Part shown: one piece after another, positions 42,487 to 62,780 of the stretch
Position numbering within the stretch: position 1 is the first letter of the stretch
How the letters are laid out: every line of letters starts with the position of its first letter
Source: Chloroflexota bacterium
GTDB lineage: Bacteria; Chloroflexota; UBA11872
Assembly (NCBI GenBank): GCA_022821905.1
Contig: JAJECS010000025.1
Location: 105,468-169,467 of the forward strand
Length of the DNA stretch: 64,000 bases
Direction: 5' to 3'
Notes under the pieces: generated by a model
The model's database searches: none
What the model was told of the DNA's origin: nothing
Seen by the model: the letters and a program-made list of their open reading frames with translations, nothing else
Position numbers and translations under genes: made by a program

Positions 42487-43482
42487 CTAGTGCCCAACTC
42501 CGGCCAGCGCCGTCCCGAAGTACCCCGGAAAGTACTCCGCGCAATTCTCCGCCAGCCATTCGATGCTGAGCCGCACCCATAGCTGCGGGTCGCGGTCGGG
42601 GAGGCAGGGTGGTTCCAGGCAGACGGGGATCGCGTGGGGATCCGGGGCGCCGGCTTGCAGGATCGCGAAGATCTCGGCGATCTCGACGCTGCCGTGGCCC
42701 ACGGGGGCGTGGAAGAACTTGGGCTCGCCGGTGGTGGTGATGGATTGCACGCGCATGTCGCGCAGGTGCGCCATGGCGACGTAGGGCGCTGCGAGCCGGG
42801 CCGCCTCGACCTGATCCTCGACGACCGCGAGGCTGTTGGAGAAGTCGTAGTTGATCCGCAGCCAGGGCGACGCAACGCCTTGGACCACCGGCACGATTTC
42901 GCTGATGCGGTAGTCCATGTGATTCTCGAACGCCAGGACGATCCCCAGGTCCTCCGCGACGCGGACGAGGTCGCGCAGGTTCTCGATCATGCAGTCGATC
43001 TGGACGGCGATCGGCACTTCGCGGCTGAAGTGCCCGAAGCGCAACCCGCCGTTGGGCACCGGCTGGCCGGGCGGCCCCGGCGGATCGGCGTTGACGATCT
43101 CGGTGAGTCGACAGCCGCCGGCGTGCAGAATCTCGAGGCTGCGGACGGCCTCTGCGCGAACGGCCGGCCATTCGTGACTCTCGACCGCCCAGGCGCCGCT
43201 GACCGACCCGACCCACTCGATTCCGAGCCCAGCCATGCGGCGGCCGGTGGCCGCGCTGGCCTCGGCGTCGGCAAACCAGCTGCTGCCCATGTGCAGCGCC
43301 TCGAACCGGTGCTCCACGCAGCGGTCGATCCACCAATCCACGTGGTCGTCGGGACCTTCCGGACCCAGCGTGGTGGTGCCGTAGGGATAGCGCATGCCGC
43401 GGAAGCCGAACTCGGGCCGGTCGATGCGCAGCCCCGGATAGGACACCCAGCGGTACGCGGCCTGCGACCCGCCGAGCCTCAC
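42487..43482 (-). CDS. Sugar phosphate isomerase/epimerase-like TIM-barrel protein
   Basis: 331 residues from a GTG (VRLGGSQAAYRW); the ATG of MRYPYGTTTLG at 43395 is an alternative start that would trim 29 residues. AP-endonuclease-2/xylose-isomerase-like features: HRFEALHMGSS, IVLAFENHMDYRISEIV (metal-ligand Glu), LRINYDFSN (Asp), MAHLRDMRV (His) and HAPVGHGSVEIAEIF. Members isomerise or epimerise sugars or dehydrate inositol derivatives. It lies 16 bases after a Gfo/Idh oxidoreductase gene, a common catabolic pairing. Confidence 0.82.
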   Translation of the reverse strand: MRLGGSQAAYRWVSYPGLRIDRPEFGFRGMRYPYGTTTLGPEGPDDHVDWWIDRCVEHRFEALHMGSSWFADAEASAATGRRMAGLGIEWVGSVSGAWAVESHEWPAVRAEAVRSLEILHAGGCRLTEIVNADPPGPPGQPVPNGGLRFGHFSREVPIAVQIDCMIENLRDLVRVAEDLGIVLAFENHMDYRISEIVPVVQGVASPWLRINYDFSNSLAVVEDQVEAARLAAPYVAMAHLRDMRVQSITTTGEPKFFHAPVGHGSVEIAEIFAILQAGAPDPHAIPVCLEPPCLPDRDPQLWVRLSIEWLAENCAEYFPGYFGTALAGVGH

Positions 43483-43498
43483 GGCGCCGCTGTCTTCG

Positions 43499-44545
43499 CT
43501 AGACCCACCCGTGGTCGGGGTGGATCGGCGTGCCGCTGGTTTGGTGGGTCCACTCCGTGCCGCCTTCCAGCAGGACCTCACGGCCCGTGATGGCCGACTG
43601 CTCCGCGGCGAACAGGATCTCCATGATGTGCCGCGCATACGGCCCGTGCGTCGGCGGTTCGATGTCGCGCGCAATGCTCTCGGCGAATGCGCGCCACTCG
43701 TCGGTGAACTCGGCCGGCGGTCGCGTGAACGGCACGTCCTCCCACACGTCGCCCTTGCCGACGCGGACGTATTCCTCGTAGTGGTGGCTGAATTTCAGCG
43801 TGCCGTTGGCGCAGATGACCTGGCCCGAGTAGTCCGACGCGCCGTCGGCGAAGCCCACGGCCACAGCCACGCCCGCGCGCCCGTTCTTGTAGCGCACGAA
43901 AATCACGTCCGAGTCGTCGCTGGCCTGGTAGTGCGCGTGGGTGCCGATGGCCGCCGAAACGGAGACGGCCTGTGAGCCCATCAGCCACGTCAGGCGGTCG
44001 ACGACGTGCACGCCGTTGGCCAGCAACATGCCACCGCCGTGGAAGCGGCTGCGGTACTGCGGCCGCCGGTCCGCGTGATTCCAGTTCTTGGACATGTAGC
44101 AGACTGCCGTGATCACCGGGCCCAGCTCGCCCGAATCGAGGATCGACTTGGCGGTGATGCTGGTGGGGTAGAAGTGCTGCGTCAGCCCGACCATGAGCTT
44201 GCGGTTGTTGGCGTCGGCCGCGGCGATCATGGCGTCGCAATGCTCCAGGCTGAGCGCCATGGGCTTCTCGACCAGCACGTGCTTGCCGGCGTTGAGTGAG
44301 TCGATGGTGAGGCGATGGTGCAGTTGATGCCCCAGCACCACCGCGACGGCATCGACGTCGTCGTCCTGCAGCAGCTCGGTGTGTGAGGCGTAGCCGCGGG
44401 GGATGTCGTACTGGCGCATATAGCGCTGCCGCGGCTCTTCCAGCAGGTCGGCCACGGCGAGAACCCGCACGTCGTCCAGCGTGGCGATCGCCTCACAGTG
44501 CGAGCGCGCAATGCCGCCCAGACCGATGATCCCGACGTTCAGCAT
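43499..44545 (-). CDS. Gfo/Idh/MocA-family oxidoreductase
   Basis: 348 residues. N-terminal Rossmann fold VGIIGLGGIARSHCEA, cofactor-site segment LVEKPMALSLEHCDAMI (EKP motif), then HVVDRLTWLMGS with the family His-x-x-Asp. It probably oxidises a hydroxyl of a sugar or inositol using NAD(P). It directly precedes the TIM-barrel gene on the same strand. No signal peptide, so cytoplasmic. The substrate is not predictable. Confidence 0.92.
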   Translation of the reverse strand: MLNVGIIGLGGIARSHCEAIATLDDVRVLAVADLLEEPRQRYMRQYDIPRGYASHTELLQDDDVDAVAVVLGHQLHHRLTIDSLNAGKHVLVEKPMALSLEHCDAMIAAADANNRKLMVGLTQHFYPTSITAKSILDSGELGPVITAVCYMSKNWNHADRRPQYRSRFHGGGMLLANGVHVVDRLTWLMGSQAVSVSAAIGTHAHYQASDDSDVIFVRYKNGRAGVAVAVGFADGASDYSGQVICANGTLKFSHHYEEYVRVGKGDVWEDVPFTRPPAEFTDEWRAFAESIARDIEPPTHGPYARHIMEILFAAEQSAITGREVLLEGGTEWTHQTSGTPIHPDHGWV

Positions 44546-44638
44546 TGGGCCACCATTCCTAACCGCCCGGCCAACGTGCCGGACCGTTCAAGGATGCCCT
44601 CTCGCCCACTCCGCGTACCACCCCGACCCGATACGTGC

Positions 44639-44773
44639 CTACTCGAACCTCACGAATCGACCTTGGACCCAGTTCCCGTCCTCAATCTCCCACCAGACCC
44701 CCAGGTTCGCGCCGGTCAGCTTGAGCCCCGATCCCTCGGGAGCGACGTAGGCAACCTCGGCATCGGAACGCGA
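44639..44773 (-). pseudogene. In-frame coding-like tail after the stop of the triple-Cache gene
   Basis: Directly after the TAA of the Cache gene the same frame continues for 44 codons (SRSDAEVAYVAPEGSGLKLT, GANLGVWWEIEDGNW, VQGRFVRFE) to a TAG. It reads like a small beta-rich domain with normal composition, so the TAA may be a recent truncation of a longer protein, or this may be a chance or decayed extension. Confidence 0.5.
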
Positions 44774-46186
44774 TTAGGTTCGCACGTTTGGCCCGCCTGC
44801 CGGCACGACCACCGCCGCAAACTGGTCCTCGCCTGAGATCGGAAGCTGGTCCTCGCCTGAGACGGACTCGTACCACCCCGACCCGAAGAGGAGACCGTCG
44901 TGCCGCACGACCCAGGAGTGTTTGACCTGGGGCTGCCCGTTTGCTGGGTTCACGAATACGTAGCTCACCCAGATACCGTCCTCGTCGGCCTGCAGCATCT
45001 CGAGACCGAACACACGCCCCGTGATATCCGTTCCCAGCGGACCCTTCAAGTCGTCGCCGAGCAGACTCGGGTCGGGATGCGTGAGCAGTCGATCGGCTTC
45101 GTCGAAAATGAAGACGTACCACTGGCCCTCGAGACTCTCGGGCGTGTTGTAGTGCGTCACGGTCGCGTCCAGTCCCTCCGCGTTGTAGCGGCTGACGGCA
45201 CGGGCGACGAACGCTTGAGTGAACGTCGCGGGATCGTCCGCACGCGAGATGGGTTCGTACCAGCCGGAAGCGAAGGACAAGCCGTCGTGCTTGATGACCC
45301 AGGTGTGCTTTCGCTCCGGCTCGCCGGTCGCCGGGTTCACGAAGACGTAGTCCACCCAGCGCCCGTCTTCGTCCGCCGCCACCACCTCGAGTCCGTAGGG
45401 CTTGCCGGTGATGTCGGATCGCACGGCGGGCGTGGTGCCCACGAAGTCCGGGCGCGCGGGGTTCGCCAGCACGTAACCGTTCTCGTCGAGCAGGAAGACA
45501 TACCACTGACCGTCGATGCTCTCCTCTGACTGCTGATAGGCAATCGACGCGTCGCGTCCTTCGGCCTCATAGCGGCTGATGGCGGAGGCCACCACGGCCT
45601 GCGTGTAGGTCGCGGGATCATCCTCACGCGAGATGGGCTCGTACCAGCCCGAGGCGAACGACAGGCCGTCATGCTTGATGACCCAGGTGTGCTTGCGCTC
45701 GGGCTCGCCGGTCGCCGGGTTCACGAAGACGTAGTCCACCCAGCGCCCGTGCTCGTCCGCCGCCACCACCTCGAGTCCATAGGGCTTGCCGGTGATGTCG
45801 GATCGCACGGCGGGCGTGGTGCCCACGAAGTCCGGGCGCGCGGGGTTCGCCAGCACGAAGCCGTTTTCGTCGAGCAGGAAGACGTACCACTGGCCGTCGA
45901 TGCTCTCCGTGGACTGGTGATAGGCAATGGAGGCTTCACGCCCCTCGGCGTCGTACCGATCGATGGCCTCCTGCACCACTCGCTGGGTGTAGCCGGCCGG
46001 ATCGGCCACGCGCACGACGGCGTCGTCGACCATCTCCTGGGCTTCCTCGCGCGTGACTCCCGTAGTTCCGGCGATCGCGATGATGAGCGCGATGATCGCG
46101 AGGATGCCGGCGACCGTCGCCATGATTGAGTCGGCGTTTTTCTTGGTCCGTTCCCAAATCTCCTGCATCGCCCGTTCCTCACTCAC
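44774..46186 (-). CDS. Membrane-anchored protein with three tandem single-Cache domains
   Basis: 470 residues. A hydrophobic helix near residues 20-40 (ATVAGILAIIALIIAIAG) anchors the protein, and the rest should face outside. Three copies of about 126 residues follow; the first two are nearly identical at both DNA and protein level (GQWYVFLLDENG, LANPARPDFVGTTPAVRSDI, WVIKHDGLSFASGWYEPISR), the third is diverged (FIFDEADRLLTHPDP). This is the sCache_2/Cache sensor pattern normally followed by a signalling domain, but none is present. It may be a ligand-binding component of another receptor, or a truncated sensor. A repeat of SGEDQLPISGEDQF is near the end. Confidence 0.85.
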   Translation of the reverse strand: MSEERAMQEIWERTKKNADSIMATVAGILAIIALIIAIAGTTGVTREEAQEMVDDAVVRVADPAGYTQRVVQEAIDRYDAEGREASIAYHQSTESIDGQWYVFLLDENGFVLANPARPDFVGTTPAVRSDITGKPYGLEVVAADEHGRWVDYVFVNPATGEPERKHTWVIKHDGLSFASGWYEPISREDDPATYTQAVVASAISRYEAEGRDASIAYQQSEESIDGQWYVFLLDENGYVLANPARPDFVGTTPAVRSDITGKPYGLEVVAADEDGRWVDYVFVNPATGEPERKHTWVIKHDGLSFASGWYEPISRADDPATFTQAFVARAVSRYNAEGLDATVTHYNTPESLEGQWYVFIFDEADRLLTHPDPSLLGDDLKGPLGTDITGRVFGLEMLQADEDGIWVSYVFVNPANGQPQVKHSWVVRHDGLLFGSGWYESVSGEDQLPISGEDQFAAVVVPAGGPNVRT

Positions 46187-46471
46187 TGGCCGGTCGCCGT
46201 CGACCGGAAGCCGAGTCGTTCCACCTATCTTGCCACCGATTGTCAGCAGGTAAACGGGTTGAAGATCGCGAAGCTTGCATCCGACGCGGAAACTCCAGTC
46301 GCTTCGACTCGTGGGCTATCGGGTTGAGCGGCCGCTGGATTGCCGCTCCGTATCGACGATGGGGCAGGCTCATCCCGGAAATGACGGATTTGAGTCCCAA
46401 GGGTCTCCGTAGGCGGGAGGTGGGAATCCCGTCCCAACTCGTTTGCCGACCCAGAGCCCCCGCCGCCGCGT
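46187..46471. repeat. Intergenic region with a degraded dispersed repeat
   Basis: It contains CTGGATTGCCGCTCCGTATC then GACGATGGGGCAGGCTCATC, a decayed version of the repeat at 26581-26620, followed by CGGGAGGTGGGAATCCCGTC. I see no gene in it. Confidence 0.55.
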
Positions 46472-47083
46472 CTACGCCCAGCGGTGCTCGTCGGCGGGGG
46501 CTTCGATCACGCCCAGCGCCTGCAACATGCGGTCCACCAGCGCGTCCACGATGTCGCTGACGCTCGAGGGCCGCAGGTAGAACGCCGGTTCCGGCGGCAG
46601 CACCGCGGCGCCGGCCTCGGCCAACGTCAGCAGATTGCGCAGGTGGATGATCGAGAGCGGCGTCTCCCGCGGCACGACCACCAGGCGGCGCTTTTCCTTG
46701 AGCGTCACGTCGGCTGCCCGATGGAGCAGATTCGTCCCGGCGCCGCTGGCCAGCGCGCCCAGCGTGGCCATGCTGCACGGGACGATGAGCATGCCGCGCA
46801 CCGGATAGCTGCCGCTGGAAATCGGCGCCGCCACGTCTTGCGGCCGATGCACCGTCACGTCGCCATGGGTCAACCAGCGCGCGGTCGCGTCCCGAAAACG
46901 CTCGTGCATCTCGTGGTGCCACATCAGCTCGCCGTAGTCGCTGCACACCACGTCGAGCCGCTCGCCTCGGCGCAGCAGCGCCCTGGCCGCCGCGTCCGCC
47001 AGCACGGCGCCGGTCGCCCCGGAAATCCCCAGGATCAGACTGGGGCGCGCCCCTCCGTGCTCAGGCAACCCACACGCCGGCAA
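46472..47083 (-). CDS. ubiX: Flavin prenyltransferase UbiX
   Basis: 203 residues. It makes prenylated FMN, the cofactor of UbiD-type decarboxylases. LILGISGATGAVLADAAARA is the flavin-binding loop, MLIVPCSMATLGALASGAG the conserved middle, and LVVVPRETPLSIIHLRNLL the LVxxPRETP signature. The start overlaps the ubiA stop by 23 bases; later starts would also be possible. Together with ubiD and ubiA it forms a quinone-biosynthesis cluster. Confidence 0.95.
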   Translation of the reverse strand: MPACGLPEHGGARPSLILGISGATGAVLADAAARALLRRGERLDVVCSDYGELMWHHEMHERFRDATARWLTHGDVTVHRPQDVAAPISSGSYPVRGMLIVPCSMATLGALASGAGTNLLHRAADVTLKEKRRLVVVPRETPLSIIHLRNLLTLAEAGAAVLPPEPAFYLRPSSVSDIVDALVDRMLQALGVIEAPADEHRWA

Positions 47084-47942
47084 TGGTGAACACCAGCGCG
47101 GTGATCGCCACGTAGCCGTTCATGTTGAAGAAGGCCAGGTTGAGCCGCGACAGGTCGTTGCGCAGCAGCGCGTGCTCATAGATGAGCAGCGCGCCGATCA
47201 GGCCAACGCCCACCCAATAGGGCCACGACAGCGGTGCGATCAGACCCAAAACGATCAGCACGACCACCGTGAGCGCGTGTGACCCCCGCGCGATCTGCAG
47301 CGCGCGCCGCGTGCCGAATCGCGCCGGCACGGAATGCAGCCCCCGCTTGCGGTCGAACCCCAGGTCCTGGAGGGAGTACAGAACGTCGAATCCCGCAATC
47401 CAGAACATCACCACCAGCGCCAGCACGATGGCCTCCGCGCCGATGTCGCCGCGCACCGCAATCCAGCCGCCGACGGGCGCGATGCCGTCGGCCAGGCCCA
47501 ACATCCAATGGCTCAGCCAGGTGAAGCGCTTCGTGAAGGAGTAGAGCGTGACCGTGACCATCGCCACCGGCGCCAGCGCCAGGGCCAGCAGGTTGAGCTG
47601 CCACGCGGCGATGTGCAGAAGGGCGAAACCCGCCGACGCCAGCCCGAGCATCTCGACGCGGGACATGCGCCCGGCGGGCAGCGCGCGCTCGGCGGTGCGC
47701 GGGTTCGCCGCGTCGATTTGTGCGTCGATCAGGCGGTTCGCCGCCATGGCGCCCGTGCGCGCACCGGCCATGGCGACCGTGATCCACAAGAATGTGCGCC
47801 ACCCGGGCCAGCCGTCCTGCGCCAGCACCATCCCCAGAAAGGCGAACGGCAACGCGAAGATCGTGTGCTCGAACTTGATCGCGTCGAGATACAAGCGAAG
47901 ACGCATCGCGGCGGCGGCCGGGTTCATTCGCGGCTCGTGCAA
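47061..47942 (-). CDS. ubiA: UbiA-family aromatic prenyltransferase
   Basis: 293 residues, about eight membrane helices. It attaches a prenyl chain to an aromatic acid. Asp-rich prenyl-diphosphate motif NRLIDAQIDAANPRTAERAL and the second motif FDVLYSLQDLGFDRKRG are present. With UbiX and UbiD alongside, the substrate could be 4-hydroxybenzoate (ubiquinone) or the futalosine-derived naphthoate (MqnP type, menaquinone). The latter is more likely if the host lacks ubiquinone, but cannot be decided from this window. Met6 is another start. Confidence 0.92.
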   Translation of the reverse strand: MHEPRMNPAAAAMRLRLYLDAIKFEHTIFALPFAFLGMVLAQDGWPGWRTFLWITVAMAGARTGAMAANRLIDAQIDAANPRTAERALPAGRMSRVEMLGLASAGFALLHIAAWQLNLLALALAPVAMVTVTLYSFTKRFTWLSHWMLGLADGIAPVGGWIAVRGDIGAEAIVLALVVMFWIAGFDVLYSLQDLGFDRKRGLHSVPARFGTRRALQIARGSHALTVVVLIVLGLIAPLSWPYWVGVGLIGALLIYEHALLRNDLSRLNLAFFNMNGYVAITALVFTIAGVWVA

Positions 47943-48002
47943 TCGGGTGCGGATTCCCAGAGCCTAGCGCGTCGCGCGACGATGCACATCCCAGTTTTCT
48001 TC

Positions 48003-49454
48003 CTAGATGCCAAAGCTGCTCCACCGTTCGTCGACCCGCCGCACGATGTCTTCGTCCATGACGATGTCCGGCGGCCACTCGCGCGGAAAGCCCTCCTCCG
48101 GCAGCTTGCGCGTGGCGTCGATGCCGAGCTTGCCGCCCACGTTTGGCTGCGTGGTGGCGAATTCCAGCGCGTCCATCACGCCCTGGGCGTGCTCGGTGTC
48201 TCTCCCGGGTTCCGTGTTGGCCCCGACGCGCCAGAGGACCTCGCTCAGATCGTGCACGTCAACGTCGGCGTCGACCACAATCACGTACTTGGTGAACATG
48301 AGCTGACCCGTGCCCCATATGGCGTGCATCACCTTGCGCGCCTGTCCCGGATAGCGCTTGCGAATCGACACGATGGCGAAGTTGTGGAACACGCCGTGTA
48401 CGGGCAGATTCATGTCCACGATCTCGGGGATGACGAGCCGCACCAGTGGCAGGAACAGCCGCTCGGTGGCTTTCCCGATCCATCCGTCCTCCATGGGCGG
48501 TCGTCCGACGATGGTGGAAACGAATATCGGATCGCGCCGCCGCGTCACCGCCGTCAGGTGGAACACCGGGTAGGGCTCGGCAAGCGAGTAGTAGCCGACG
48601 TGGTCGCCGAACGGGCCCTCCATGCGACTCTCGGCCGGATCGACGTAGCCTTCCAGCACAATCTCGGCGCGCGCCGGGACCAGGATGTCCACCGTCTGTG
48701 CCGGTACCATCTCGACCGACGAACCCCGCAGGAATCCGGCGAACACGAGCTCATCCACGTCCGGCGGCAACGGGGCCGTTGCGGAGTAGAGCAGCACCGG
48801 GTCGGCGCCGATGGCGATGGCCACCTCCATGCGCGTGCTCGACTCGCCGCTGCGCCGCCAGTGCTCCGCCCCGCCTTTGTGCAGCTGCCAATGCATGCCC
48901 AGCGTCTGTGAGTCGTAGACCTGCAAGCGGTACATGCCCATGTTTCGCTTGCCGCTCGCCGGGTCGTGGGTGAATACGAGCGGCATGGTGATGTAGGGGC
49001 CGCCGTCGTCCGGCCAGCAGGTGGGTATGGGCAGGCCGTCCAGCGTCGGTGCCGCCGTCTCGACGATGTCTTGCACGGGGCCGCCGCGCACGGTCCGCGG
49101 GCCGATGCGGCCGATGTGCACGATCTCACCCAGCGTCCGCAGCTTGCCCCAGATGCCGGCGGGCGGCGGGCTCATGGCGAGGTTCAGCAGGTGCTCGATG
49201 CGGGTTTCCAACTCGGACCAATCGTCCACCCCCAGCGCCCAGGCCATCCGCTGCTGGGTGCCGAGCAGGTTGATCGCCAGCGGCACGTCGGAACCCTTCA
49301 CGTTTTCGAACAGCAGCGCCGGGCCGTCCGCCTTCATCACCCGGTCGGCGATCTCGGTGATTTCGAGATGCGGGTCAACCTCGGGCTGGATCCGGCGCAG
49401 CTGCCCCTGTTGCTCGATGTGGGCGATGAAGGCGCGCAGGTCTTTGAAGGCCAT
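48003..49454 (-). CDS. ubiD: UbiD-family decarboxylase
   Basis: 483 residues, full length. It decarboxylates an aromatic or prenylated aromatic acid using prenyl-FMN from UbiX. MAFKDLRAFIAHIEQQGQLR is the typical start, with PALLFENVKGSD, DGGPYITMPLVFTHDP, RMEGPFGDHVGYYSL (ligand Glu region) and HAIWGTGQLMFTKYVIVVD. The functional UbiD E-R-E triad appears consistent with these segments. In clusters with ubiA/ubiX it acts in ubiquinone or futalosine-menaquinone synthesis. Confidence 0.95.
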   Translation of the reverse strand: MAFKDLRAFIAHIEQQGQLRRIQPEVDPHLEITEIADRVMKADGPALLFENVKGSDVPLAINLLGTQQRMAWALGVDDWSELETRIEHLLNLAMSPPPAGIWGKLRTLGEIVHIGRIGPRTVRGGPVQDIVETAAPTLDGLPIPTCWPDDGGPYITMPLVFTHDPASGKRNMGMYRLQVYDSQTLGMHWQLHKGGAEHWRRSGESSTRMEVAIAIGADPVLLYSATAPLPPDVDELVFAGFLRGSSVEMVPAQTVDILVPARAEIVLEGYVDPAESRMEGPFGDHVGYYSLAEPYPVFHLTAVTRRRDPIFVSTIVGRPPMEDGWIGKATERLFLPLVRLVIPEIVDMNLPVHGVFHNFAIVSIRKRYPGQARKVMHAIWGTGQLMFTKYVIVVDADVDVHDLSEVLWRVGANTEPGRDTEHAQGVMDALEFATTQPNVGGKLGIDATRKLPEEGFPREWPPDIVMDEDIVRRVDERWSSFGI

Positions 49455-55252: not shown

Positions 55253-55633
55253 TCAAACCTGAAAGCCGAGCGCCGCGGCCGCTGCCTGCTGTCGCTCGTC
55301 GCGTGTGACGAACGCGATCTGGCCGGGCTCCGGCGCGGCATATAGGGCTATCGCGACGTGCCACAGGTCGGCGCCGTGCAATTGACCGGATTCGAGGACG
55401 GCTGACATCTCGGGAGCCAGCGGCCGGTCCGGCAGGACCCAGTCGATGCCGGCGACCAGATTGGTCGCGAAGTCGAGGCGCTCGCGCGCGAACACCGCGC
55501 GCAGCTCGGCCTCGAGCAGATTAGAGGCGAGTAGGCGCGAGCACTCATCGAGACGCCCGGCGATCGCCGATCCGGACCGATCGTCGAATGCGACGGCGAC
55601 CAGTGCCGACGTGTCGACGTAGGCGACGCTCAC
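55253..55633 (-). CDS. vapC: VapC-family PIN-domain toxin
   Basis: 126 residues from GTG sharing a base with the antitoxin stop (TAGTG). PIN residues: AYVDTSALVAVAFDD (Asp), LLEAELRAVFARE (Glu), LHGADLWHVA (Asp) and IAFVTRDERQ (Asp). It should be an RNA endonuclease toxin, neutralised by the upstream Phd/YefM-type protein. The pair is convergent with the SMC-associated gene. Confidence 0.92.
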   Translation of the reverse strand: MSVAYVDTSALVAVAFDDRSGSAIAGRLDECSRLLASNLLEAELRAVFARERLDFATNLVAGIDWVLPDRPLAPEMSAVLESGQLHGADLWHVAIALYAAPEPGQIAFVTRDERQQAAAAALGFQV

Positions 55634-55905
55634 TAGTCGCGCTCGGTGAGGAATCGCTCCACGGCGCCGGCGCGACGCTCCACCACTTGGAGCGGTCGAC
55701 GCGCCAGGCTCGATCGAACCAGGACGCCACGCCGCTCCAGGTCTTCCAGCCGTTCGTCGATCGTGGCCGGTTCCGGCTGGAGCGGCCGGATCTCGGCTAC
55801 CGGCTCGTCGCGATAGGACACCGTGACGGTCTTCCCCTCGCGCACCTGACGCATGACCTCGGCGAAGCGCGCCTTCGCTTCATAGGTTGAATAGGTGATG
55901 CCCAT
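55633..55905 (-). CDS. Phd/YefM-family antitoxin
   Basis: 90 residues. It starts ITYSTYEAKARFAEVMRQVR with the family core VTVSYRDEPVAEIRPL, a Phd/YefM DNA-binding domain, and ends with the usual flexible toxin-binding tail. It would repress its own promoter and block the VapC toxin. TATACT lies about 9 bases upstream of the start, suggesting a short or leaderless transcript. Confidence 0.92.
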   Translation of the reverse strand: MGITYSTYEAKARFAEVMRQVREGKTVTVSYRDEPVAEIRPLQPEPATIDERLEDLERRGVLVRSSLARRPLQVVERRAGAVERFLTERD

Positions 55906-56088
55906 GCGCGGCAGTATAACCAGTCAGACTAGTCAAATACCAATACGAGCCGCGAACTGATAGGAGGCATGCGGTCGTAATCTCGGCCACCGACCGAGGC
56001 GTCGGCCTGCACGATTAGCACGGGACGCGGGAGTCCGGGTCCTATGCCTCGGCTAGGTCGGCCCGCCAAGCCTCGCCTCGCTCGACGA
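55906..56088. other. Intergenic region upstream of phd and downstream of hicA
   Basis: It contains a palindromic GACTAGTC and an AGTCAGACT dyad close to the phd start (about 55924-55935), possible Phd operator sites. Otherwise I see no gene in it. Confidence 0.4.
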
Positions 56089-56412
56089 CTACTTGTCAGC
56101 GGCGAGACTGCGGCCTTGGGCCTGTCTGAGCTCGGACGCGAGCCCGCTCGGCTGCTCGCTGAGGACCCGATTTAGGCGCGACGTAATGTGTTCGTCCCAA
56201 TGCTTGGTGAACTCCCCGCGCGTCAGACCGGCATCGGGGATCAGCGCCCGCAGCAAGCCTCGACCCAGCTCCCGGTGTCGGGGGACCGTGAGGCGGCGAC
56301 CGGCCGGGCCGATGAGAATCATGTGGCTGCCGCGCGTACGGTCCCGAGTAAAGCCGATCTGGGCCACTGCCTTGACAAACTCGTCGCCTGAGATGACGGG
56401 AAGACGCGCCAC
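56089..56412 (-). CDS. hicA: HicA mRNA-interferase toxin with C-terminal extension
   Basis: 107 residues from GTG, sharing a base with the hicB stop (TAGTG). The double-stranded-RNA-binding-like HicA core is VSGDEFVKAV-like (VISGDEFVKAVAQIGF) with the catalytic His in TRGSHMILIG and RRLTVPRHRELGRGLLRAL. HicA proteins are usually 60-80 residues; here about 30 extra C-terminal residues (SRLNRVLSEQPSGL onward) have no known role. The order hicB-hicA is the reverse of the classic order. Confidence 0.9.
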   Translation of the reverse strand: MARLPVISGDEFVKAVAQIGFTRDRTRGSHMILIGPAGRRLTVPRHRELGRGLLRALIPDAGLTRGEFTKHWDEHITSRLNRVLSEQPSGLASELRQAQGRSLAADK

Positions 56413-56987
56413 TACGCCGGGACTTGCAAGACCTGAAACTCCGACGATGAAGGCAGGGGGTCCCCATGCTCACGCATGCTTGCCAGGTAGCCGCGAATGG
56501 CCTCTCGAATGTTGGTCAGCGCCTCGTCCCTCGTTCGCCCCTGGCTGTGGCATCCCGGGAGCGTGGGACAGCTGGCCACCACCCAGCCATCCTCGTCGCG
56601 ATCGAACACCACCAGCAGATTCAGGATGTCCTGGCCGTCCGTCGGAGCGTCTAGCGGGGCTATGGTCGCTTCCGGCGACGGCTCGGCCGCATAAACCGCG
56701 GCATTCCGCCCCGGTGCCGGGACGCCATAGATCACTTCATCCCGACGACGCTCTGATATCTCGAATCCCAACTTGCTGAGAATTCGGAAGGCGTCCTGTG
56801 AAGTGAATCCTGGAGAGGTCAGCCCGGTGACCAGCTGCAGCACTTGCCTGATCGGAAACTGACGCCCGTGAAGATCGATGAAGTATTTGTGGCGCCCGTC
56901 GGCAGCGTTGGGCTCCACGCCCCGCGTGACATCCTGGACGCTCTCCGGCGTGATCGCATAGAGCGCGCCACGAATCCGAAAATCCAT
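56412..56987 (-). CDS. hicB: HicB antitoxin fused to an extra N-terminal domain
   Basis: 191 residues. The C-terminal part is the HicB fold: LVVFDRDEDGWVVASCPTLP, GCHSQGRTRDEALTNIREA then IRGYLASM. The N-terminal 100 residues are unusual: GRHKYFIDLHGRQFPIRQVL, LTSPGFTSQDAFRILSKLGF, a segment of a type also seen in some restriction/modification proteins, whose function I cannot name. The fusion may replace the HTH or RHH DNA-binding domain that many HicB proteins carry at their C-terminus. It precedes hicA on the same strand. Confidence 0.88.
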   Translation of the reverse strand: MDFRIRGALYAITPESVQDVTRGVEPNAADGRHKYFIDLHGRQFPIRQVLQLVTGLTSPGFTSQDAFRILSKLGFEISERRRDEVIYGVPAPGRNAAVYAAEPSPEATIAPLDAPTDGQDILNLLVVFDRDEDGWVVASCPTLPGCHSQGRTRDEALTNIREAIRGYLASMREHGDPLPSSSEFQVLQVPA

Positions 56988-57188
56988 TCAGTACCCTTGG
57001 GGTTCTTTCTTCTTTCTCTTACTTCCCCGACCATAGCAGGCCCGGCCGGGGGTGTAGGGCCATCGCAATTCAGTCCGTCGCGCTAAACGTTGGCGCGAGG
57101 CAATCGCCCGGACTCTGGGGCATGCGTCAAAAGAGGGCCTGCGACGTGTGGTAGAAATGCGCTCCATGTTTCTACCCCGAGGATGCCG

Positions 57189-57446
57189 ATGAGCCTCAAC
57201 ATCAAGAACGAGGAAACCTGCCGGCTGGCGCGCGAGTTGGCGCAGTTGACCGGCGAGACCATGACCGGGGCAGTCACCATTGCGCTAGAGGAGCGCTTGG
57301 AGCGGGAGCGGCGTCAGCGCAGCGTGGACGAGCGCCTGCGGGATATGCGGGCTATCTCCGAGCGCTGCGCCAAGCTGCTTGGCCCAGGCCCTTCCGCCGC
57401 CGACCACGGCGATCTGCTCTATGACGAGCGAGGCCTGCCGAAGTGA
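57189..57446 (+). CDS. vapB: VapB-family antitoxin (ribbon-helix-helix)
   Basis: 85 residues from the ATG of MSLNIKNEETCRLARELAQL with GAGG upstream; an ATG two codons earlier is an alternative. The N-terminal LNIKNEETCRLARELAQLTG is the VapB/Rv0623-type antitoxin start; the tail ends DLLYDERGLPK, the usual toxin-binding end. The vapC GTG overlaps its stop. Confidence 0.92.
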   Translation: MSLNIKNEETCRLARELAQLTGETMTGAVTIALEERLERERRQRSVDERLRDMRAISERCAKLLGPGPSAADHGDLLYDERGLPK

Positions 57447-57829
57447 TCGTGGACTCCTCCGCGTTGCTGGCGGTGCTTTTTGGTGAGCCGGACGCGGACC
57501 AATTCGACGAGGCAATGGCCAAGTCCCTGCGCTGCCGCATGTCGGCCGTGAGTTTCTTAGAGGCCGCCATCGTCTTGGAGAGTCGTAGCGGCCCCGCGGC
57601 CGGGCATCAACTCGATGCGTTCTTGGAAGCGGCGGAGATTGAGTTGGCGCCGGTCACGCCCGACCAGGCGCGGGCCGCCCGACAGGCCTGGCGGCGGTTC
57701 GGCAAGGGCAACCACCCGGCGGGACTGAACTTCGGCGACTGCTTCAGCTATGCGCTGGCGGAATCCGCGCGCGAGCCGCTGCTATTCAAGGGCGAGGACT
57801 TTGCTCGAACCGACATCGAGGCGGCCTGA
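57443..57829 (+). CDS. vapC: VapC-family PIN-domain toxin
   Basis: 128 residues from GTG overlapping the vapB stop (GTGA). PIN residues: MIVDSSALLAVLFGEPD (Asp), SFLEAAIVLE (Glu), GLNFGDCFSYALA (Asp) and LLFKGEDFARTD (Asp). The FGDCFSYALA segment is typical of the group paired with Rv0623-type VapB. It would cleave tRNA or rRNA when free. A hairpin follows the stop and may terminate the transcript. Confidence 0.93.
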   Translation: MIVDSSALLAVLFGEPDADQFDEAMAKSLRCRMSAVSFLEAAIVLESRSGPAAGHQLDAFLEAAEIELAPVTPDQARAARQAWRRFGKGNHPAGLNFGDCFSYALAESAREPLLFKGEDFARTDIEAA

Positions 57830-58181: not shown

Positions 58182-58640
58182 ATGAGCACGCCAAGCCAAA
58201 GCAACGGAAAAACGGACCTCGTCATCCACCGGGTATTGATTGGGTCCCACCAGGTTTCCGAGTACCTCAACTCGGCCTGCGAGCGGGCGGGCGTGTCGCT
58301 GCCGCTGGCGCGTGCATTGCAGTTTCTGGCCGAGGCCGAAGGCCCGGTCACGCCCACCGAGCTCTCGCGCGAGCTCGGTCGCAGCCCGGCGGCCACCTCC
58401 GAGCTGGTGAAGCGGCTCGTGAACAGCGAGCAGATCACCGCGGACATCGATCCCAACGACCGCCGCTCGTTTCAGCTGGTGCTCACGAGCCGAGGGCACT
58501 CCAAGTGGCAGGGCGTGCGCGCGGAGCTTGAGGCCGCGGAGGCGTACATTACTCGCCGCTATGGCAAACGACAGTTGACCGAGCTTGCCGGTGCCATCGA
58601 CGACCTGGCCGCCGCGCTCAACGGCGCTGCCGCAGGCTAG
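58182..58640 (+). CDS. MarR-family transcriptional regulator
   Basis: 152 residues with AAGGAGA upstream of the ATG. Winged-HTH core: VTPTELSRELGRSPAATSEL then VKRLVNSEQI and the wing DIDPNDRRSFQLVLTSRG. Helical dimerisation arms flank it. The ligand is unknown. Its stop codon overlaps the convergent pafA stop (both on CTAG). No neighbouring gene on the same strand suggests a target. Confidence 0.9.
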   Translation: MSTPSQSNGKTDLVIHRVLIGSHQVSEYLNSACERAGVSLPLARALQFLAEAEGPVTPTELSRELGRSPAATSELVKRLVNSEQITADIDPNDRRSFQLVLTSRGHSKWQGVRAELEAAEAYITRRYGKRQLTELAGAIDDLAAALNGAAAG

Positions 58641-60130
58641 GGGCGCAGATACCCGCCGAGCTTGTCGGCGAACTCCTCGGCGACGGCGGTATAGCTCTCA
58701 AACGGATTGGGCAACTCGCAGAGCTTTCCGCGTACCCCGACGCCGGTCCAGTCGATCAGGTAGGGGATGACGTCCCAGCCGCCGTAGGCGTCGAGTTCAT
58801 GCCAGTCCTCGATGTACTGGTAGACGAGGAAGAGCTGATCGTTCCAGTTCGTCAGCGCGCCGAGGTTCCGGTGGACGTCTTTCCAGTCGATCAGCGAGTC
58901 GGCCTGCGCTTCGACCAGCGCCCGCACGATGCGGCCCCGGGCGCGCGCCCGCGTGCCGGAGGGCACGGCCAGCGGATTCACATCCCCCTGCGTGCGGCGC
59001 GGGGCTACGCCCCGCCGCTGCAGCTCGGCAAAGATGCTCACCGTGGGGTCGATGTGGTGGTAGGCCAGATCCACTTTCACGAGCTCGGAGTCTGCCCAGC
59101 CATCCGGTGAGTCCTCGGCGAATCGGCGCAACTGCTCGAGCTTGGTGATCCAGTCGACCTTGCCGACCAATACCGTCGGATCGCGCTCGAGGCCGTCCAG
59201 ACACTCCGTCCACGCGTCCAGGGTCCAGTCGGTGTCACTGTCGCGGCCGCGGAAGGCGCGCTCGGCGGCATCCCAATACATGCGCTGGACGTCGAGAGCC
59301 GGCAGGGTTCGGCCGTTCGCCAGCTCGACCGACCAGGGGCCGGCCGGATTGCTTGAAATCTCCTTGAGCGTCTGCACCGGCGCCCGCAGCACCAGGTCCG
59401 GACTCCAGCCGCTCTCCAAGAGCTGCGCCACCAGCGCGGTGGAGCCGATCTTGAGTGCGGTGGCGAACTCGCTTCGGTTGGCGTCGCCCACGATCACGTG
59501 CAGCCGTCGCAGCCCGGCGTCCTCGGCCAGCGGCTCGTCGCGCAGATTGACGATCGGTCGACCGCCAAAGCGCACGCGCTGGCTCATATCGATGCTCACG
59601 AACGCCGCGCGCTGCGAGATGTGGAACGGCAGGCCGCCGTCGTCCCGGTCGCTGATCGTCATCCCGGCGCCGGCGTAGAGCTGCCGCGTGGTCAGGAAGG
59701 GCATCAGGCCGGCGGCCATGTCGAGACTGCGGGGACTGCGCCGCACGGCATAGTTCTCGTGGTAGCCGAAGGTGTTTCCCAGGTAGTCGGTGTTGTTCTT
59801 GATGAAGAACAGGCGACGATTCAGCTCCTGGCTCTCCACCGCGTCCAGCAGCACGGCGTCCGCCGCGTTCTCCTGCTCCACGATGTCGTCCAGCGTGCGG
59901 CACTCGGCCGTGGCGTATTCGACGTGGCCGGAATCGAGGTAGAGCCGCGCGCCGTTGAACAGGAAGCCGCCATTCCCCGGCGCTTCGTCCCACTCCCGGG
60001 GCGCCGGGTCGATGATGCCGAAGCGGCGCTCGGCGAAGATCACGTTCTTGACCAGCGTTGCGGCCCGCGCCGGCGGAAACTCACCGGCGCTGGCGTACTC
60101 GATCTCCGTGCCGAACAGCGCGTCCTTCAT
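58637..60130 (-). CDS. pafA: Pup ligase PafA
   Basis: 497 residues. A carboxylate-amine-ligase fold protein that attaches Pup's C-terminal Glu to lysines of target proteins, using ATP. ALFGTEIEYA holds the metal-binding Glu residues, NGARLYLDSGHVEYATAEC carries the catalytic Asp (D66), and KNNTDYLGNTFGYHENYA, LRDEPLAEDAGLRRLHVIVG and GDANRSEFATALKIGS are shared with PafA/Dop. It lacks the extended loop seen in the upstream gene, which is why it is called PafA rather than Dop. It is about 45 residues longer than actinobacterial PafA. It follows pup after 12 bases. Confidence 0.9.
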   Translation of the reverse strand: MKDALFGTEIEYASAGEFPPARAATLVKNVIFAERRFGIIDPAPREWDEAPGNGGFLFNGARLYLDSGHVEYATAECRTLDDIVEQENAADAVLLDAVESQELNRRLFFIKNNTDYLGNTFGYHENYAVRRSPRSLDMAAGLMPFLTTRQLYAGAGMTISDRDDGGLPFHISQRAAFVSIDMSQRVRFGGRPIVNLRDEPLAEDAGLRRLHVIVGDANRSEFATALKIGSTALVAQLLESGWSPDLVLRAPVQTLKEISSNPAGPWSVELANGRTLPALDVQRMYWDAAERAFRGRDSDTDWTLDAWTECLDGLERDPTVLVGKVDWITKLEQLRRFAEDSPDGWADSELVKVDLAYHHIDPTVSIFAELQRRGVAPRRTQGDVNPLAVPSGTRARARGRIVRALVEAQADSLIDWKDVHRNLGALTNWNDQLFLVYQYIEDWHELDAYGGWDVIPYLIDWTGVGVRGKLCELPNPFESYTAVAEEFADKLGGYLRP

Positions 60131-60142
60131 CGGCCGCGGGGG

Positions 60143-60316
60143 CTACTCCCCGCCGGGCTGCGGCGTCGGATCCGGGATTTCACGAATGATCCGCCGGACG
60201 TGCTCACCCAGGTCGTCGTCCTCGGCCGGCGCGGTTTCTTCGTCCGGTGCCGTCTTGGCCGGTTCGGGCGGCGCCTCGACCTCGCCCGCCGGCACAGCCC
60301 GCCACGTGATGCTCAT
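60143..60316 (-). CDS. pup: Prokaryotic ubiquitin-like protein Pup
   Basis: 57 residues. It starts MSITWRAVPAGEVEAPP, has an acidic middle (PDEETAPAEDDDLGEH) and ends HVRRIIREIPDPTPQPGGE. The C-terminal Gly-Gly-Glu is the Pup hallmark; ending in Glu means it could be conjugated without prior Dop deamidation. A strong AGAGGAGG lies 7 bases before the ATG, within the last codons of dop, and 3 bases separate the dop stop from this start. The gene lies exactly between dop and pafA. The recognition of the family is by position, length, acidity and the GGE end. Confidence 0.93.
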   Translation of the reverse strand: MSITWRAVPAGEVEAPPEPAKTAPDEETAPAEDDDLGEHVRRIIREIPDPTPQPGGE

Positions 60317-60319
60317 CGC

Positions 60320-61804
60320 TCATCCTCCTCTGGCGCTAAGCGCGGCTACTACATCATCGATGGTTACAGATTGCTCAACCAGGGTTTGGAGTCGGTCGAT
60401 GTCGGGTCCCGCCACCTCGTCCAACCGCAGAGTGACGTCCACGCCGTTGTGGCGCAGGTGGACGCGGTCCCACTCCATGGCGGTGATCGACGGTCCAAAC
60501 CTGGCCAGCAACGTGCCCCGCACGGCGGCCCTGGTGCCTGACGGCGGCGTCGTGCGCGCTCCCTCAACCTGCTCCGGCGTCACCAGCGTGCGCATGCGTC
60601 CCCGATCCGTGAGCCACTGGTGCACGCTGAGGTTCGGGTCCAGCAGGTGATAGGCGAAGTCGAGGCGTCGCGCCGCCTCCGGCGCCGGGCCGAGCTCCCG
60701 CAGCAGCGACAGCTTGGCCGCCCAGTCGACTCGGTCCGCCACGGATGCCGCATCGCTCCGCAAATCGGCCAGCACCTGCCCCCACTCGTCCAGCACCCAA
60801 TCCGTCTCGGCGTCGCGTCCGCGGAAGCGTTCGCAGGCACTCAGCCACCACCGTTGGATGTCGAGCGGCGAAACATTGAGACCGTCGTCGAGTTCGATGC
60901 TCTCGCTCAGCGTGAGGTCGTGGGAGACCTGCTGGACCGCAGCCACGGGATCGCGCAGCCGGATAGGCGCCCGCCATCCGCCCTCGACCGCATCGAGCAC
61001 CAGCGCGGTTGTCGCCGCCTTCATCCCCGTCGCCCACTCGCTGCGGTTGGCGTCGCCGGCGATCACGTGCAGCCGCCGGTAGCGGGTCCGATCGGCGTGC
61101 GGCTCGTCGCGCGTGTTGAAGATGGGCCGGCGCGCCGTCGTGTTGATTCCCACCACCGTTTCGAAGAAGTCGGCGCGCTGGGATAGTTGCAACGCGCCGG
61201 AATCGCCGCCCTCGATGCCCACGCGACCCGCGCCGGCGAAAACCTGGCGCGTCGCCAGGAAGGGCACCAGCGCGTCAACGAGATCGTCGAGCGGCACCTC
61301 GCGCAGCGTCAGGAAGTTCTCGTGGCAGCCGTAGCTGCGCCCGTGATAGTCCGTGTTGTTCTTGACCAGCCGCACCCGGCCGCCGTCCAGGCGGGCGTTA
61401 TGCGCCTGCTCGGCCTCGTGCATCAGCGCCTCGCCGGCGCGGTCCTGCGCCACCAAGTCGAGCACCGTGCGGCAGGCGTCGGTGCAGTACTCGGGGTGAT
61501 TGTGGTCGTTGTAGAGCCGCGCGCCGTTCAGCAGCACCGTGTCGGCCAGCAGCTCCTCCCGCGTCATGCGGGAGCTCTGTTCGGTCGAGCCCAGATGGTC
61601 GTTGGCGTCGCGCGCCAGCGCGTCGACCCGCGTGCCGCGCAGGTCGCGCCGCGGGTCCTCGTCGGTGTAGTCCCAACCGCGAAACGCGACCGGCAGCGGC
61701 GCCGCGTGAATCAACATCGCCGACTCGAAGGCGAAGTCGGGCGGTCCCGCAAACCCTTCGCAATTGAGGCCGTATTCCGTCTCGATTCCGACCGGGCGAT
61801 TCAT
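60320..61804 (-). CDS. dop: Depupylase/deamidase Dop
   Basis: 494 residues. It opens PVGIETEYGLNCEG (metal Glu residues) and has, before the catalytic segment LLNGARLYNDHNHPEYCTDA (D100), an extended region (FRGWDYTDEDPRRDLRGTRV ...) of the Dop-loop kind that distinguishes Dop from PafA. LVKNNTDYHGRSYGCHENFL and NTRDEPHADRTRYRRLHVIA are shared family segments. Dop removes Pup from substrates and, where Pup ends in Gln, deamidates it. Here Pup ends in Glu, so depupylation would be the main role. First gene of dop-pup-pafA. Confidence 0.93.
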   Translation of the reverse strand: MNRPVGIETEYGLNCEGFAGPPDFAFESAMLIHAAPLPVAFRGWDYTDEDPRRDLRGTRVDALARDANDHLGSTEQSSRMTREELLADTVLLNGARLYNDHNHPEYCTDACRTVLDLVAQDRAGEALMHEAEQAHNARLDGGRVRLVKNNTDYHGRSYGCHENFLTLREVPLDDLVDALVPFLATRQVFAGAGRVGIEGGDSGALQLSQRADFFETVVGINTTARRPIFNTRDEPHADRTRYRRLHVIAGDANRSEWATGMKAATTALVLDAVEGGWRAPIRLRDPVAAVQQVSHDLTLSESIELDDGLNVSPLDIQRWWLSACERFRGRDAETDWVLDEWGQVLADLRSDAASVADRVDWAAKLSLLRELGPAPEAARRLDFAYHLLDPNLSVHQWLTDRGRMRTLVTPEQVEGARTTPPSGTRAAVRGTLLARFGPSITAMEWDRVHLRHNGVDVTLRLDEVAGPDIDRLQTLVEQSVTIDDVVAALSARGG

Positions 61805-61823: not shown

Positions 61824-62780
61824 CTATTCCCCGATGGGGATTCCGATGTCCGCGGTCACGGCGCCTTCGAGCACGACCTTCCCCAGTGCGATGTCCCACA
61901 GCGCGATGCCCTGCGACTCGAACAGGGTGATCTCGTCCGGGCTGGTGCGACCGGGCGCGCGACCGGCCACGACCTGGCCGAACTCGACCGCCTCGCCCCA
62001 TTGGAAGGCCCCATCCTCGACGGCGCAGATCAGGTCGCCGCACTCAATCATCGCGCCTTCCAGATCGTCCACGAAGACCCGGTCGGCGCGGGCAACCGCG
62101 GCGCTGTCGAGCTCTCGATGCTGCGGGTGGTTGGTGCCCATGGCGACGACGTGGGCGCCGCGCTCGATCCAGTCGGCCTCGACGACGGGATCGGCGGCAT
62201 TGGTGGCCGTGATCACGACCTGCGCGCCGCGCACCGCCGCCTCGGCCGTGGCCGCGGGTTCCAGGTCGGCATCCAGCTGAGGCGACATCTCGTCCACGAA
62301 ATGTTGGACGTTCTCCGGGTTGCGCGAGAACACCCGCACCCGCGCCGACGGCCGCACGGCGCAGACGGCCTCTAGCTGCGTTCGCGCCTGCCGGCCTGTG
62401 CCGATGATCCCAATGGCGTCAACTTCCGGCTGCGCCAGGTATTTCACCGAGACCCCGCTCGCGGCGCCGGTGCGAAGACCGCTGAGGCGCCCGGCTTCGA
62501 TGACGGCGCTCAGGGCCCCGCTGGCCGCGTCGAACAGCACAACGACGAAGCTGATGCGCCCGCCGGGAACGCTCGGATAGAGCTTGGCGCCCATGACGCC
62601 CACGCCGGGATCGGCCGCGCCCATGAGCTGCAGCGCGCCCTTTGCCGTGCGCGCCCGGCGCCGCCCCACGTTCGCCGACACTCCGAATCCCTGCCGCTCG
62701 AAGGACCCCTCGACGACGCGCAGCGCCAGGTCCATGTCGGCCAGGCGGTCCACGTCCGCTTCGGTCAAATATCGGGCCAT
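61824..62780 (-). CDS. Ornithine cyclodeaminase/mu-crystallin family protein
   Basis: 318 residues. Rossmann-type NAD domain with IGIIGTGRQARTQLEAVCAV, and the mu-crystallin/OCD layout: GALSAVIEAGRLSGLRTGAA, VISTATNA-like VVITATNAADPVVEAD and HVVAMGTNHPQHREL. Members include ornithine cyclodeaminase, alanine dehydrogenase and ketimine reductases; the substrate cannot be chosen. It lies 19 bases upstream of dop on the same strand and is probably co-transcribed, but a functional link to pupylation is not evident. Confidence 0.9.
   Translation of the reverse strand: MARYLTEADVDRLADMDLALRVVEGSFERQGFGVSANVGRRRARTAKGALQLMGAADPGVGVMGAKLYPSVPGGRISFVVVLFDAASGALSAVIEAGRLSGLRTGAASGVSVKYLAQPEVDAIGIIGTGRQARTQLEAVCAVRPSARVRVFSRNPENVQHFVDEMSPQLDADLEPAATAEAAVRGAQVVITATNAADPVVEADWIERGAHVVAMGTNHPQHRELDSAAVARADRVFVDDLEGAMIECGDLICAVEDGAFQWGEAVEFGQVVAGRAPGRTSPDEITLFESQGIALWDIALGKVVLEGAVTADIGIPIGE

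Follow-up and report, generated by a model that had tools for sequence, protein, structure and literature searches.

Pupylation has been discussed for Actinobacteria and Nitrospirae, mostly as a system coupled to the proteasome, with sporadic draft-genome matches in other phyla. A hallmark of Pup is a Glu or Gln as its last residue, and Pup of C. glutamicum ends in GGE. A Pup-like tag, UBact, occurs in other Gram-negative phyla; it is short, has a Glu/Gln-type end and is accompanied by PafA/Dop-family enzymes, and UBact gene sets include proteasome and ATPase. In C. glutamicum, according to passages of PMC8223512 and PMC12288473, Pup, PafA, Dop and ARC are present without prcBA, pupylation is in use and ARC is proposed to unfold pupylated ferritin. 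Chloroflexi are not mentioned in the parts of the phylogenetic study PMC7947786 consulted here. The titles and abstract beginnings of the open-licence literature revealed no study of pupylation in Chloroflexota, 'Pup ligase' together with 'Chloroflexota' was not found in that literature, and the portion searched of text in which 'pupylation' and 'Chloroflexi' co-occur gave no relevant passage.

The Chloroflexota DNA analysed here, a stretch of 64,000 nucleotides (the window), had been proposed in an earlier sequence-only reading to carry a dop-pup-pafA operon at 58637-61804. Open reading frames lie exactly there on the minus strand, with PF03136 in both flanking genes. The first, dop (60320..61804; PF03136 4.8e-141), encodes a depupylase/deamidase of 494 aa. 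It is followed after 3 bases by pup (60143..60316), which encodes a divergent ubiquitin-like tag of 57 aa ending in IIREIPDPTPQPGGE, and after another 12 bases by pafA (58637..60130; PF03136 3.8e-105), which encodes a Pup ligase of 497 aa. The strong ribosome-binding site and the Gly-Gly-Glu end claimed for the 57-codon gene are both present: an exact GGAGGA (60323..60328, minus strand; 6/6 match) sits inside the final two dop codons, directly preceding the dop stop codon, and the frame ends GGE*. The gene identities, their order and the GGE end stood up to the tests made. Upstream of dop, on the same minus strand, lies an ornithine cyclodeaminase-family gene (61824..62780; PF02423 1.2e-59). 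It is not thought to be part of the Pup module, since apart from dop and pafA no neighbour cluster exceeds 3/5 families.

The operon is widespread in one class of the phylum. Our class sample comprises 41 genomes, 24 of them with a completeness of 90% or more and a contamination of 5% or less. Both dop and pafA are found in 39/41, and pup lies between them in 38 of these 39; in the remaining one, G229, the dop end and the gap to pafA read as a run of N. Neither enzyme gene was found in the other 264 Chloroflexota genomes searched. The tag was not found in the two class genomes without dop/pafA, G197 (93% complete) and G273 (76%). Pupylation is therefore a near-fixed trait of a single Chloroflexota class. 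The class is uncultured, and one of its member records bears the name UBA2235. No viral copy was confirmed in viral_contigs, and the one match in a phage collection is record MT835496.1.

All 38 readable operons of the 39 encode, together with dop and pafA, a short protein with a GGE or GGQ end. Its C-terminus is nearly invariant across the class operons, RIIREIPDPTPQPGG[E/Q], and the final residue is Glu in 24 and Gln in 14 of the 38, never another. For comparison, of the 2234 stops counted over all six frames of the 64-kb window, 2 are preceded by GG[EQ]. A quick Dop tree (37 rows) implies at least three switches between the Glu and Gln ends, and the Gln end in 14/38 operons suggests that Dop-type deamidation is probably still used in those relatives, the sister genus among them. 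Pairwise codon differences over the 15 C-terminal tag codons are 5111 synonymous versus 367 non-synonymous, which points to strong protein-level selection on pup. The sequence-only reading would have fallen had relatives lacked the frame or its Pup C-terminal motif; both are kept. Codon selection and class-wide conservation also rule out the frame as a chance ORF.

The description of the tag as an unannotated Pup holds as well: no model in Pfam or NCBIfam, as searched, recognises it as Pup. PF05639 gives 1e-29, 1.5e-30 and 4.1e-18 on three canonical Pups, no match at E≤1 on the window's own tag and none at E≤10 in the 18 of the 38 class Pups scanned. A profile of the class tag found no Pup chain among PDB sequences. 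Besides GG-x, the tail agrees with canonical Pup at 5/22 positions, a level reached by 81 of 10000 shuffles. Prolines sit 9, 7, 5 and 3 residues before the final residue. Set against the limits of Pup docking helix 2 as given in section 6 of PMC8599861, in the part consulted, they speak against the second half of that helix, and may stand in for much of the second docking helix of actinobacterial Pup. The N-terminal half of the tag is low-complexity and rich in Pro, Thr and Glu. A receptor motif in this half was considered and rejected: selection is weak there, and the pattern fits 31/38 rows and is missing from the window's own genus (6 rows) and from the row L068. The lack of any matching Pup model and a tail mostly unlike Pup are what a chance frame, or a tag of some other chemistry between two ligase-family enzymes, would show. 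We nevertheless judge this very improbable given the 5111:367 codon ratio, the 38/39 occurrence, the GG[E/Q] end in 38/38 and neighbours whose folds are closest to Dop and PafA.

The 494-aa product scores 403 bits with TIGR03688, under the 492-bit cut-off, and its residues 1-461 align to A. cellulolyticus Dop with E 4.9e-99. Its AlphaFold model (pLDDT 83.4) has Dop 7oxv as the closest PDB match (TM 0.85). Trp44 of the Dop-loop, the catalytic Asp100 and His101 are invariant in 37 rows, and the alpha-loop threonines Thr222 and Thr223 are present in at least 90% of them. By its PF03136 fold, Dop-loop, catalytic Asp and alpha-loop Thr, the predicted protein is a Dop.

For the 497-aa product, TIGR03686 gives 284 bits versus 251 bits for TIGR03688, both under cut-off. 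Its structure model (pLDDT 76.2) is closest in the PDB to the PafA-Pup complex 4bjr (TM 0.74). Residue types were judged by Table 1 of PMC7947786 and section 6 of PMC8599861, in the parts consulted. Asp66 aligns to D64, and Leu65, Gly68, Ala73 and Ala75 are PafA-type; Asp66, Gly68, Ala73 and Arg191 are invariant in 37 rows. One residue is absent beside the catalytic Asp, and the alpha-loop has a pattern of its own, unlike that of PafA or of Dop. With its PF03136 fold, catalytic Asp66, PafA-type neighbouring residues and no Dop-loop, the predicted protein is a PafA. Grouping of the class PafA with canonical PafA is neither supported nor rejected by the tree test (p-AU 0.455), and the tree gives no support to an independent PafA/Dop duplication in the class, nor does it exclude one.

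PafA had been described as about 45 residues longer than actinobacterial forms, and it does exceed the 452-aa actinobacterial (Nonomuraea) PafA by 45 aa; relative to the PafA of MT835496.1 (467 aa) the surplus is 30 aa. Alignment, which had been put forward as a check, places the extra length in two inserts, one of 16 residues before strand β-2 and one of about 42 residues in the C-terminal domain; deletions cancel part of this gain. Both are gaps in two actinobacterial-type PafA sequences. Insert 1, residues 40-55 (IDPAPREWDEAPGNGG; 59966..60013, minus strand), lies just before strand β-2 at the site taken by the Dop-loop in Dop. Its residues Pro42, Pro44, Arg45, Glu46, Trp47, Glu49 and Pro51-Gly55 are invariant in 30 rows, and residues 39-58 are modelled with low confidence (pLDDT<50). 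In insert 2, residues 429-468 (58727..58846, minus strand), Tyr439, Tyr457 and Trp461 are invariant in 30 rows, and Tyr437, Trp443, Trp452, Pro456 and Asp460 are found in at least 90% of them. Two more inserted residues lie at about 420-421. Judged from these alignments, both inserts are conserved in the class.

The proteasome subunits had been noted as missing from the window, and this extends to the whole source genome, a draft of 2.95 Mb in 31 contigs that is 93% complete. Its contigs gave no match to PF00227 or PF16450, and with TIGR03689 only AAA-core matches, all under cut-off; the proposed search for prcA/prcB and mpa/arc thus detected neither proteasome nor ARC. In the class, 20S subunits were sought with TIGR03690 (beta) and PF00227. 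TIGR03690 is passed by 0/41 class genomes and also by 0/14 controls, so that this model is without a positive control. PF00227 matches in 3/41. In G085 the match is a 246-aa hydrolase, of which G205 has a near-identical copy; in G294 the match is a PrcA-like fragment of 147 aa at a contig end, either contamination or a real proteasome piece. Mpa/ARC above the TIGR03689 cut-off was found in 0/41. Sub-cut-off AAA-core matches occur alike in 41/41 class genomes and 14/14 controls, so this search would overlook an unfoldase that has diverged very far. The ARC OB domain PF16450 matches in 2/41, and neither protein was accepted as ARC, one being a DUF58 protein (Pfam 8.6e-20) and the second nearly the same protein. 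ARC, a point that the sequence-only reading had left open, is therefore missing too.

That a normal Pup-proteasome system is present, with prcBA and arc missed through drafts or divergence, could draw on the 93% completeness of the source genome and the contig-end fragment in G294. We hold it improbable: 20S-beta and above-cut-off ARC are at 0/41 each, 24/41 genomes reach the quality given above, the single-contig genome G023 has the operon with neither 20S nor ARC, and the Pfam controls pick up the real Nonomuraea PrcB (PF00227, 5.6e-38), PrcA (2.5e-14) and ARC (PF16450, 3.7e-22). Between proteasome genes lying elsewhere and pupylation working without a proteasome, the two options first offered, the same two zero counts and G023 favour the second. 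An inactive pupylation relic would also fit the missing partner machinery, but the catalytic residues do not vary across 37 rows each of PafA and Dop and codon selection on the tag is strong, which leaves it extremely improbable. We conclude that this is probably a genuine, reversible, class-wide Pup module operating without proteasome and without ARC.

Candidate partners were also considered. A 414-aa AAA ATPase of the source genome (C17:33895-35136), followed by a DUF6414 gene, was rejected as a substitute unfoldase: among the matches listed, a near relative (63%) occurs only in G157, and the best listed matches of the other 39 class genomes are partial and weaker. An AAA frame of 505-524 aa was set aside as it is found, among the matches listed, in 8/9 genomes of family f4 only and is not class-wide. 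Neighbours were clustered over 40 loci with 512 non-overlapping frames, an earlier clustering having been blurred by antisense frames; this filter, which retains the longest frame, can lose real genes, and several contigs break off near the operon. No conserved neighbour emerged as a missing partner, since only dop and pafA reach 5/5 families; what we read as an aldo-keto-reductase-like cluster reaches 3, and no other more than 2.

With no 20S and no Mpa/ARC found, conjugation is most likely a reversible modification, or substrates go to a general AAA+ protease. Canonical Pup threading begins at a disordered end. If conjugates were degraded by Clp, Lon or FtsH, the protease would have been swapped and initiation would take place at the tag's disordered, P/T/E-rich beginning, its low-complexity N-terminal half. 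Clp-type ATPase frames (AAA_2 with ClpB_D2-small) do occur in loci of families f2 and f3, at a distance of about 5-6 kb from the operon. However, these are 2/5 families, with differing sides and strands; a Clp_N domain is present only in the f3 frame examined, other ordinary genes are common to two families equally often, and the loci examined showed neither an adaptor nor a fusion. We regard such degradation as rather unlikely.

In the reversible-modification reading, homology suggests that PafA would use ATP to activate Pup (57 aa) at its C-terminal Glu and then join it to protein lysines through a predicted isopeptide bond; Dop would take Pup off, acting mainly as depupylase, and the Gln-ended Pup of relatives would be deamidated first. 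The tag would offer one amphipathic helix (about DLDERIRRIIREI), after which a PDPTPQP arm would reach in extended form into the active sites, whereas actinobacterial Pup docks with two helices. On the ligase side, the likely counterparts of the altered tag are the two PafA inserts. A tryptic remnant on a pupylated lysine is predicted to end ...EIPDPTPQPGGE. The modification might alter activity, assembly or localisation of its targets, and tagging may serve for reversible signalling, not as a death mark. A fuller version, in which a class-wide non-degradative, proteasome- and ARC-free system combines the docking helix and polyproline arm with a recurring N-terminal E-A-P-T-K-P-A-E-x-P-T-E-type stretch that a receptor may read and a ligase insert, at the Dop-loop position, gating the active site, is tentative, and we give it somewhat less than an even chance.

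The class allows the question of whether pupylation is useful by itself to be tested, as the known degrader and unfoldase are both undetected, and its tag helps to narrow down the Pup features on which the enzymes depend. Because the tag is unseen by the family models searched, a search with PF05639 alone may overlook Pup genes in other phyla.

Compared with known systems, the class would differ from UBact, as generally described, in that no proteasome and no Mpa/ARC-type ATPase was detected. It resembles the actinobacterial system of Nonomuraea (L137/L139) in having dop then pup, the same enzyme fold, catalytic Asp and Dop-loop, and the GG[E/Q] end. Unlike the class, Nonomuraea encodes ARC and two proteasome subunits no more than 19 kb from dop-pup, its best PafA match among the places examined in the record is about 6 Mb from dop-pup, and its Pup matches PF05639 (1.5e-30) and ends ENAEEFVRSYVQKGGE. 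MT835496.1 (L138) shares the tandem dop-pup-pafA order, whereas it has one ORF combining ARC-type domains with Dop, and a canonical Pup with a GGQ end. Like C. glutamicum, the class has Pup, PafA and Dop without 20S subunits; unlike C. glutamicum, which keeps ARC, it has no ARC found, and both its tag and its PafA are redesigned.

The sequence-only reading had proposed a dop-pup-pafA operon, and this is borne out by three minus-strand genes in the order dop (61804–60320), pup (60316–60143) and pafA (60130–58637), separated by gaps of 3 and 12 bases. The Shine-Dalgarno site of pup, GGAGGA, lies within the last two dop codons. Both enzymes match Pfam Pup_ligase. In NCBIfam the Dop model comes first for the upstream gene (403 versus 331 bits) and the PafA model for the downstream gene (284 versus 251 bits), all of these scores being under the curated cut-offs. 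The small protein encoded between them has no match in the Pfam and NCBIfam scans. Beyond the pafA end, at 55253–57829, lie three closely spaced toxin-antitoxin-like pairs: PIN/Phd-like (its antitoxin scoring under the cut-off), HicA/HicB-like and Rv0623-like/PIN.

The 57-codon frame with its Gly-Gly-Glu end had been taken for Pup, and it is kept in all 38 readable operons of the class to which this genome belongs. The C-terminal end reads RI[I/V]RE[I/V/M]P[D/G]PTPQPGG[E/Q] throughout. At the DNA level no two of the 38 share the same last 17 codons, and pairwise comparison over 15 codons of the tail gives 5111 synonymous versus 367 non-synonymous differences. The last residue is Glu in 24 operons and Gln in 14, requiring at least three switches on a quick Dop tree (37 rows). 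The last position thus varies in amide state only, which fits a substrate whose Glu form is required by PafA and can be produced from Gln by Dop. The module is best read as functionally a Pup module, even with a tag that the family model misses.

Canonical, actinobacterial-type Pup of Nonomuraea (locus L137) ends ENAEEFVRSYVQKGGE. In an ungapped comparison with the class consensus, 5 of 22 further positions are identical, a value equalled by 81 of 10000 shuffles. Canonical Pup bound to Dop has helices D44–V53 and N57–S64 in a total of 71 residues, according to an excerpt of PMC8599861. Counting back from the final residue, the class tag has prolines at distances of 9, 7, 5 and 3, which makes a helical second half of helix 2 unlikely; what we infer is a single amphipathic helix running from roughly 23 to 10 residues ahead of the C-terminus. 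Upstream of the tail the tag is rich in Pro, Thr and Glu, and a [E/D/Q][A/T]P-x-[K/E/R]P motif recurs there, found in 31 of 38 tag rows and fitting neither the six rows of the window's own genus nor locus L068. Constraint on this stretch is far weaker than on the tail (1362 synonymous versus 896 non-synonymous differences in 25 rows, those of family f3 being left out, and 1701 versus 2169 in all 31), and the motif might possibly serve as a receptor motif. One class Pup is lysine-free, so Pup-on-Pup chains cannot be the general rule.

Class Dop aligns with A. cellulolyticus Dop over residues 1–461 (4.9e-99), Dop-loop included, and its predicted model fits Dop structures with a TM of 0.85. Asp100, His101 and Dop-loop Trp44 are invariant, and alpha-loop Thr222/223 is present in at least 90% of 30 rows. 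Class PafA aligns with C. glutamicum PafA over 54–417 (4e-62); its predicted model is less confident (pLDDT 76) and has its best fit to the PafA-Pup complex (TM 0.74). Asp66, Gly68, Ala73 and Arg191 correspond to D64, G66, A72 and R201. Compared with Table 1 of PMC7947786, PafA has mainly PafA-like residues around its catalytic Asp, one residue being absent, and Dop shows the absent insertion and the His typical of Dop. The PafA alpha-loop fits neither pattern, except for Ser183 (S194). The claim that PafA is about 45 residues longer than actinobacterial forms holds at 497 aa against 452 in Nonomuraea, and 467 in record MT835496.1. By alignment, the surplus consists of two inserts, both with invariant residues, offset by deletions: 16 residues before strand beta-2, the site of the Dop-loop in Dop, and about 42 in the C-terminal domain. 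Class Dop, class PafA, canonical Dop and canonical PafA form four well-supported clades without a resolved branching order; grouping the two PafA clades is not the best tree and is not rejected (p-AU 0.455). MT835496.1 itself (36856–48349), deposited as 'Bacteriophage sp.', encodes a 1021-aa ORF with ARC OB and AAA domains and then Dop, followed downstream by a canonical Pup (GGQ) and PafA; it is perhaps a piece of actinobacterial chromosome with an ARC-Dop fusion. To the observed gene set, selection, catalytic residues and predicted folds, homology would add the chemistry: PafA would ligate the Glu end of the tag to lysine in an ATP-dependent manner, and Dop would remove the tag and, in Gln-ended relatives, deamidate it. 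More tentatively, the polyproline arm may stand in for helix 2 and have the PafA inserts as partners.

Within a phylum-wide draw of 301 genomes, the module is confined to this class: PF03136 (Pup_ligase) occurs in 35, each of them one of the 37 class members of that draw, and in none of the 264 others. After six more checks, 39 of 41 class genomes carry dop and pafA, the two without being G273 (76% complete) and G197 (93% complete, 1.9 Mb). A tag profile finds a single copy in 38 of the 41 and none in these two or in G229, whose site is masked by a run of N. The source genome (2.95 Mb, 31 contigs, 93% complete) carries the window on contig C4, and another class genome, G023, is a single 3.0-Mb contig (94% complete) that includes the operon. 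A scan of genome contigs with the Pup alignment gave 175 matching stretches, and 30 loci were confirmed: 28 come from records with the title Chloroflexi or Chloroflexota bacterium and two (L107, L108) from Thermoflexus-titled MAGs. One record is named UBA2235, a name that suggests the UBA2235 lineage for the class. In excerpts of PMC10608941, UBA2235/UBA11872 is ranked at class level within Chloroflexota, and those of PMC8163846 include UBA2235 among sponge-associated groups. Genome G302 has a third Pup_ligase-family protein on its own contig (L091:7652–9091, minus; 479 aa, 4.1e-62) with a very long branch in the tree, and its sole tag copy found sits in a normal operon.

Proteasome subunits had been reported as out of view, and the genome-wide searches agree. 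PF00227 (proteasome-type) has no match in the source genome and three in the 41 class genomes. Two of these, in G085 and G205 (L038:1243–1983, minus, and L039:1501–2010), are a 246-aa hydrolase starting MTLIVA, the copies being 99% identical over 170 aa, without a match to the 20S-beta model. The third, in G294 (L129:10510–10953, minus), is a 147-aa PrcA-like fragment cut by the contig end, either contamination or a remnant. TIGR03690 (bacterial 20S beta) is passed by none of the 41, a cut-off that no control genome passes either. TIGR03689 (Mpa/ARC) gives AAA-core matches in all 41 and in 14 of 14 controls; none of the 41 is above cut-off and one control is, C. glutamicum's match being consistent with that one. 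PF16450 (ARC OB domain) matches in two class genomes, both times a DUF58 protein. As positive controls, PF00227 and PF16450 strongly match Nonomuraea PrcB, PrcA and ARC, and PF16450 also matches C. glutamicum; PF00227, which matches in E. coli, should cover HslV as well. As far as these models see, the known readers, 20S proteasome and ARC, are missing. Conjugates might instead be handed over to a general AAA+ protease, a reading we favour less than that of the tag as a reversible modification.

Several other ATPases were noted. Contig C17 of the source genome encodes a 414-aa AAA ATPase and then a DUF6414 protein (L002:1096–2340 and 2130–3614), perhaps an accessory or defence pair; among the matches listed, the ATPase has a near relative (63%) in one other class genome. 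Family f4 has a 508-aa single-AAA protein (L125:1270–2796, minus) whose N-terminal half is without assignment, and among the matches listed, frames of 505–524 aa occur in at least 8 of 9 f4 genomes. In families f2 and f3, Clp-type ATPase frames (L068, L069, L071, L072–L074) lie about 5–6 kb away from the operon, on differing sides and strands; Clp_N is present in the f3 frame checked and absent from the f2 frame checked.

Overall, the observation made from sequence is confirmed and its interpretation supported. In C. glutamicum, according to excerpts of PMC8223512 and PMC12288473, pupylation is useful without a 20S proteasome, but through ARC. The class is likewise without a detected 20S, and ARC, which serves in C. 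glutamicum, is not found here either. A tag that fails the Pup family model, combined with neither a proteasome nor an unfoldase found, is what sets this module apart from known Pup systems.
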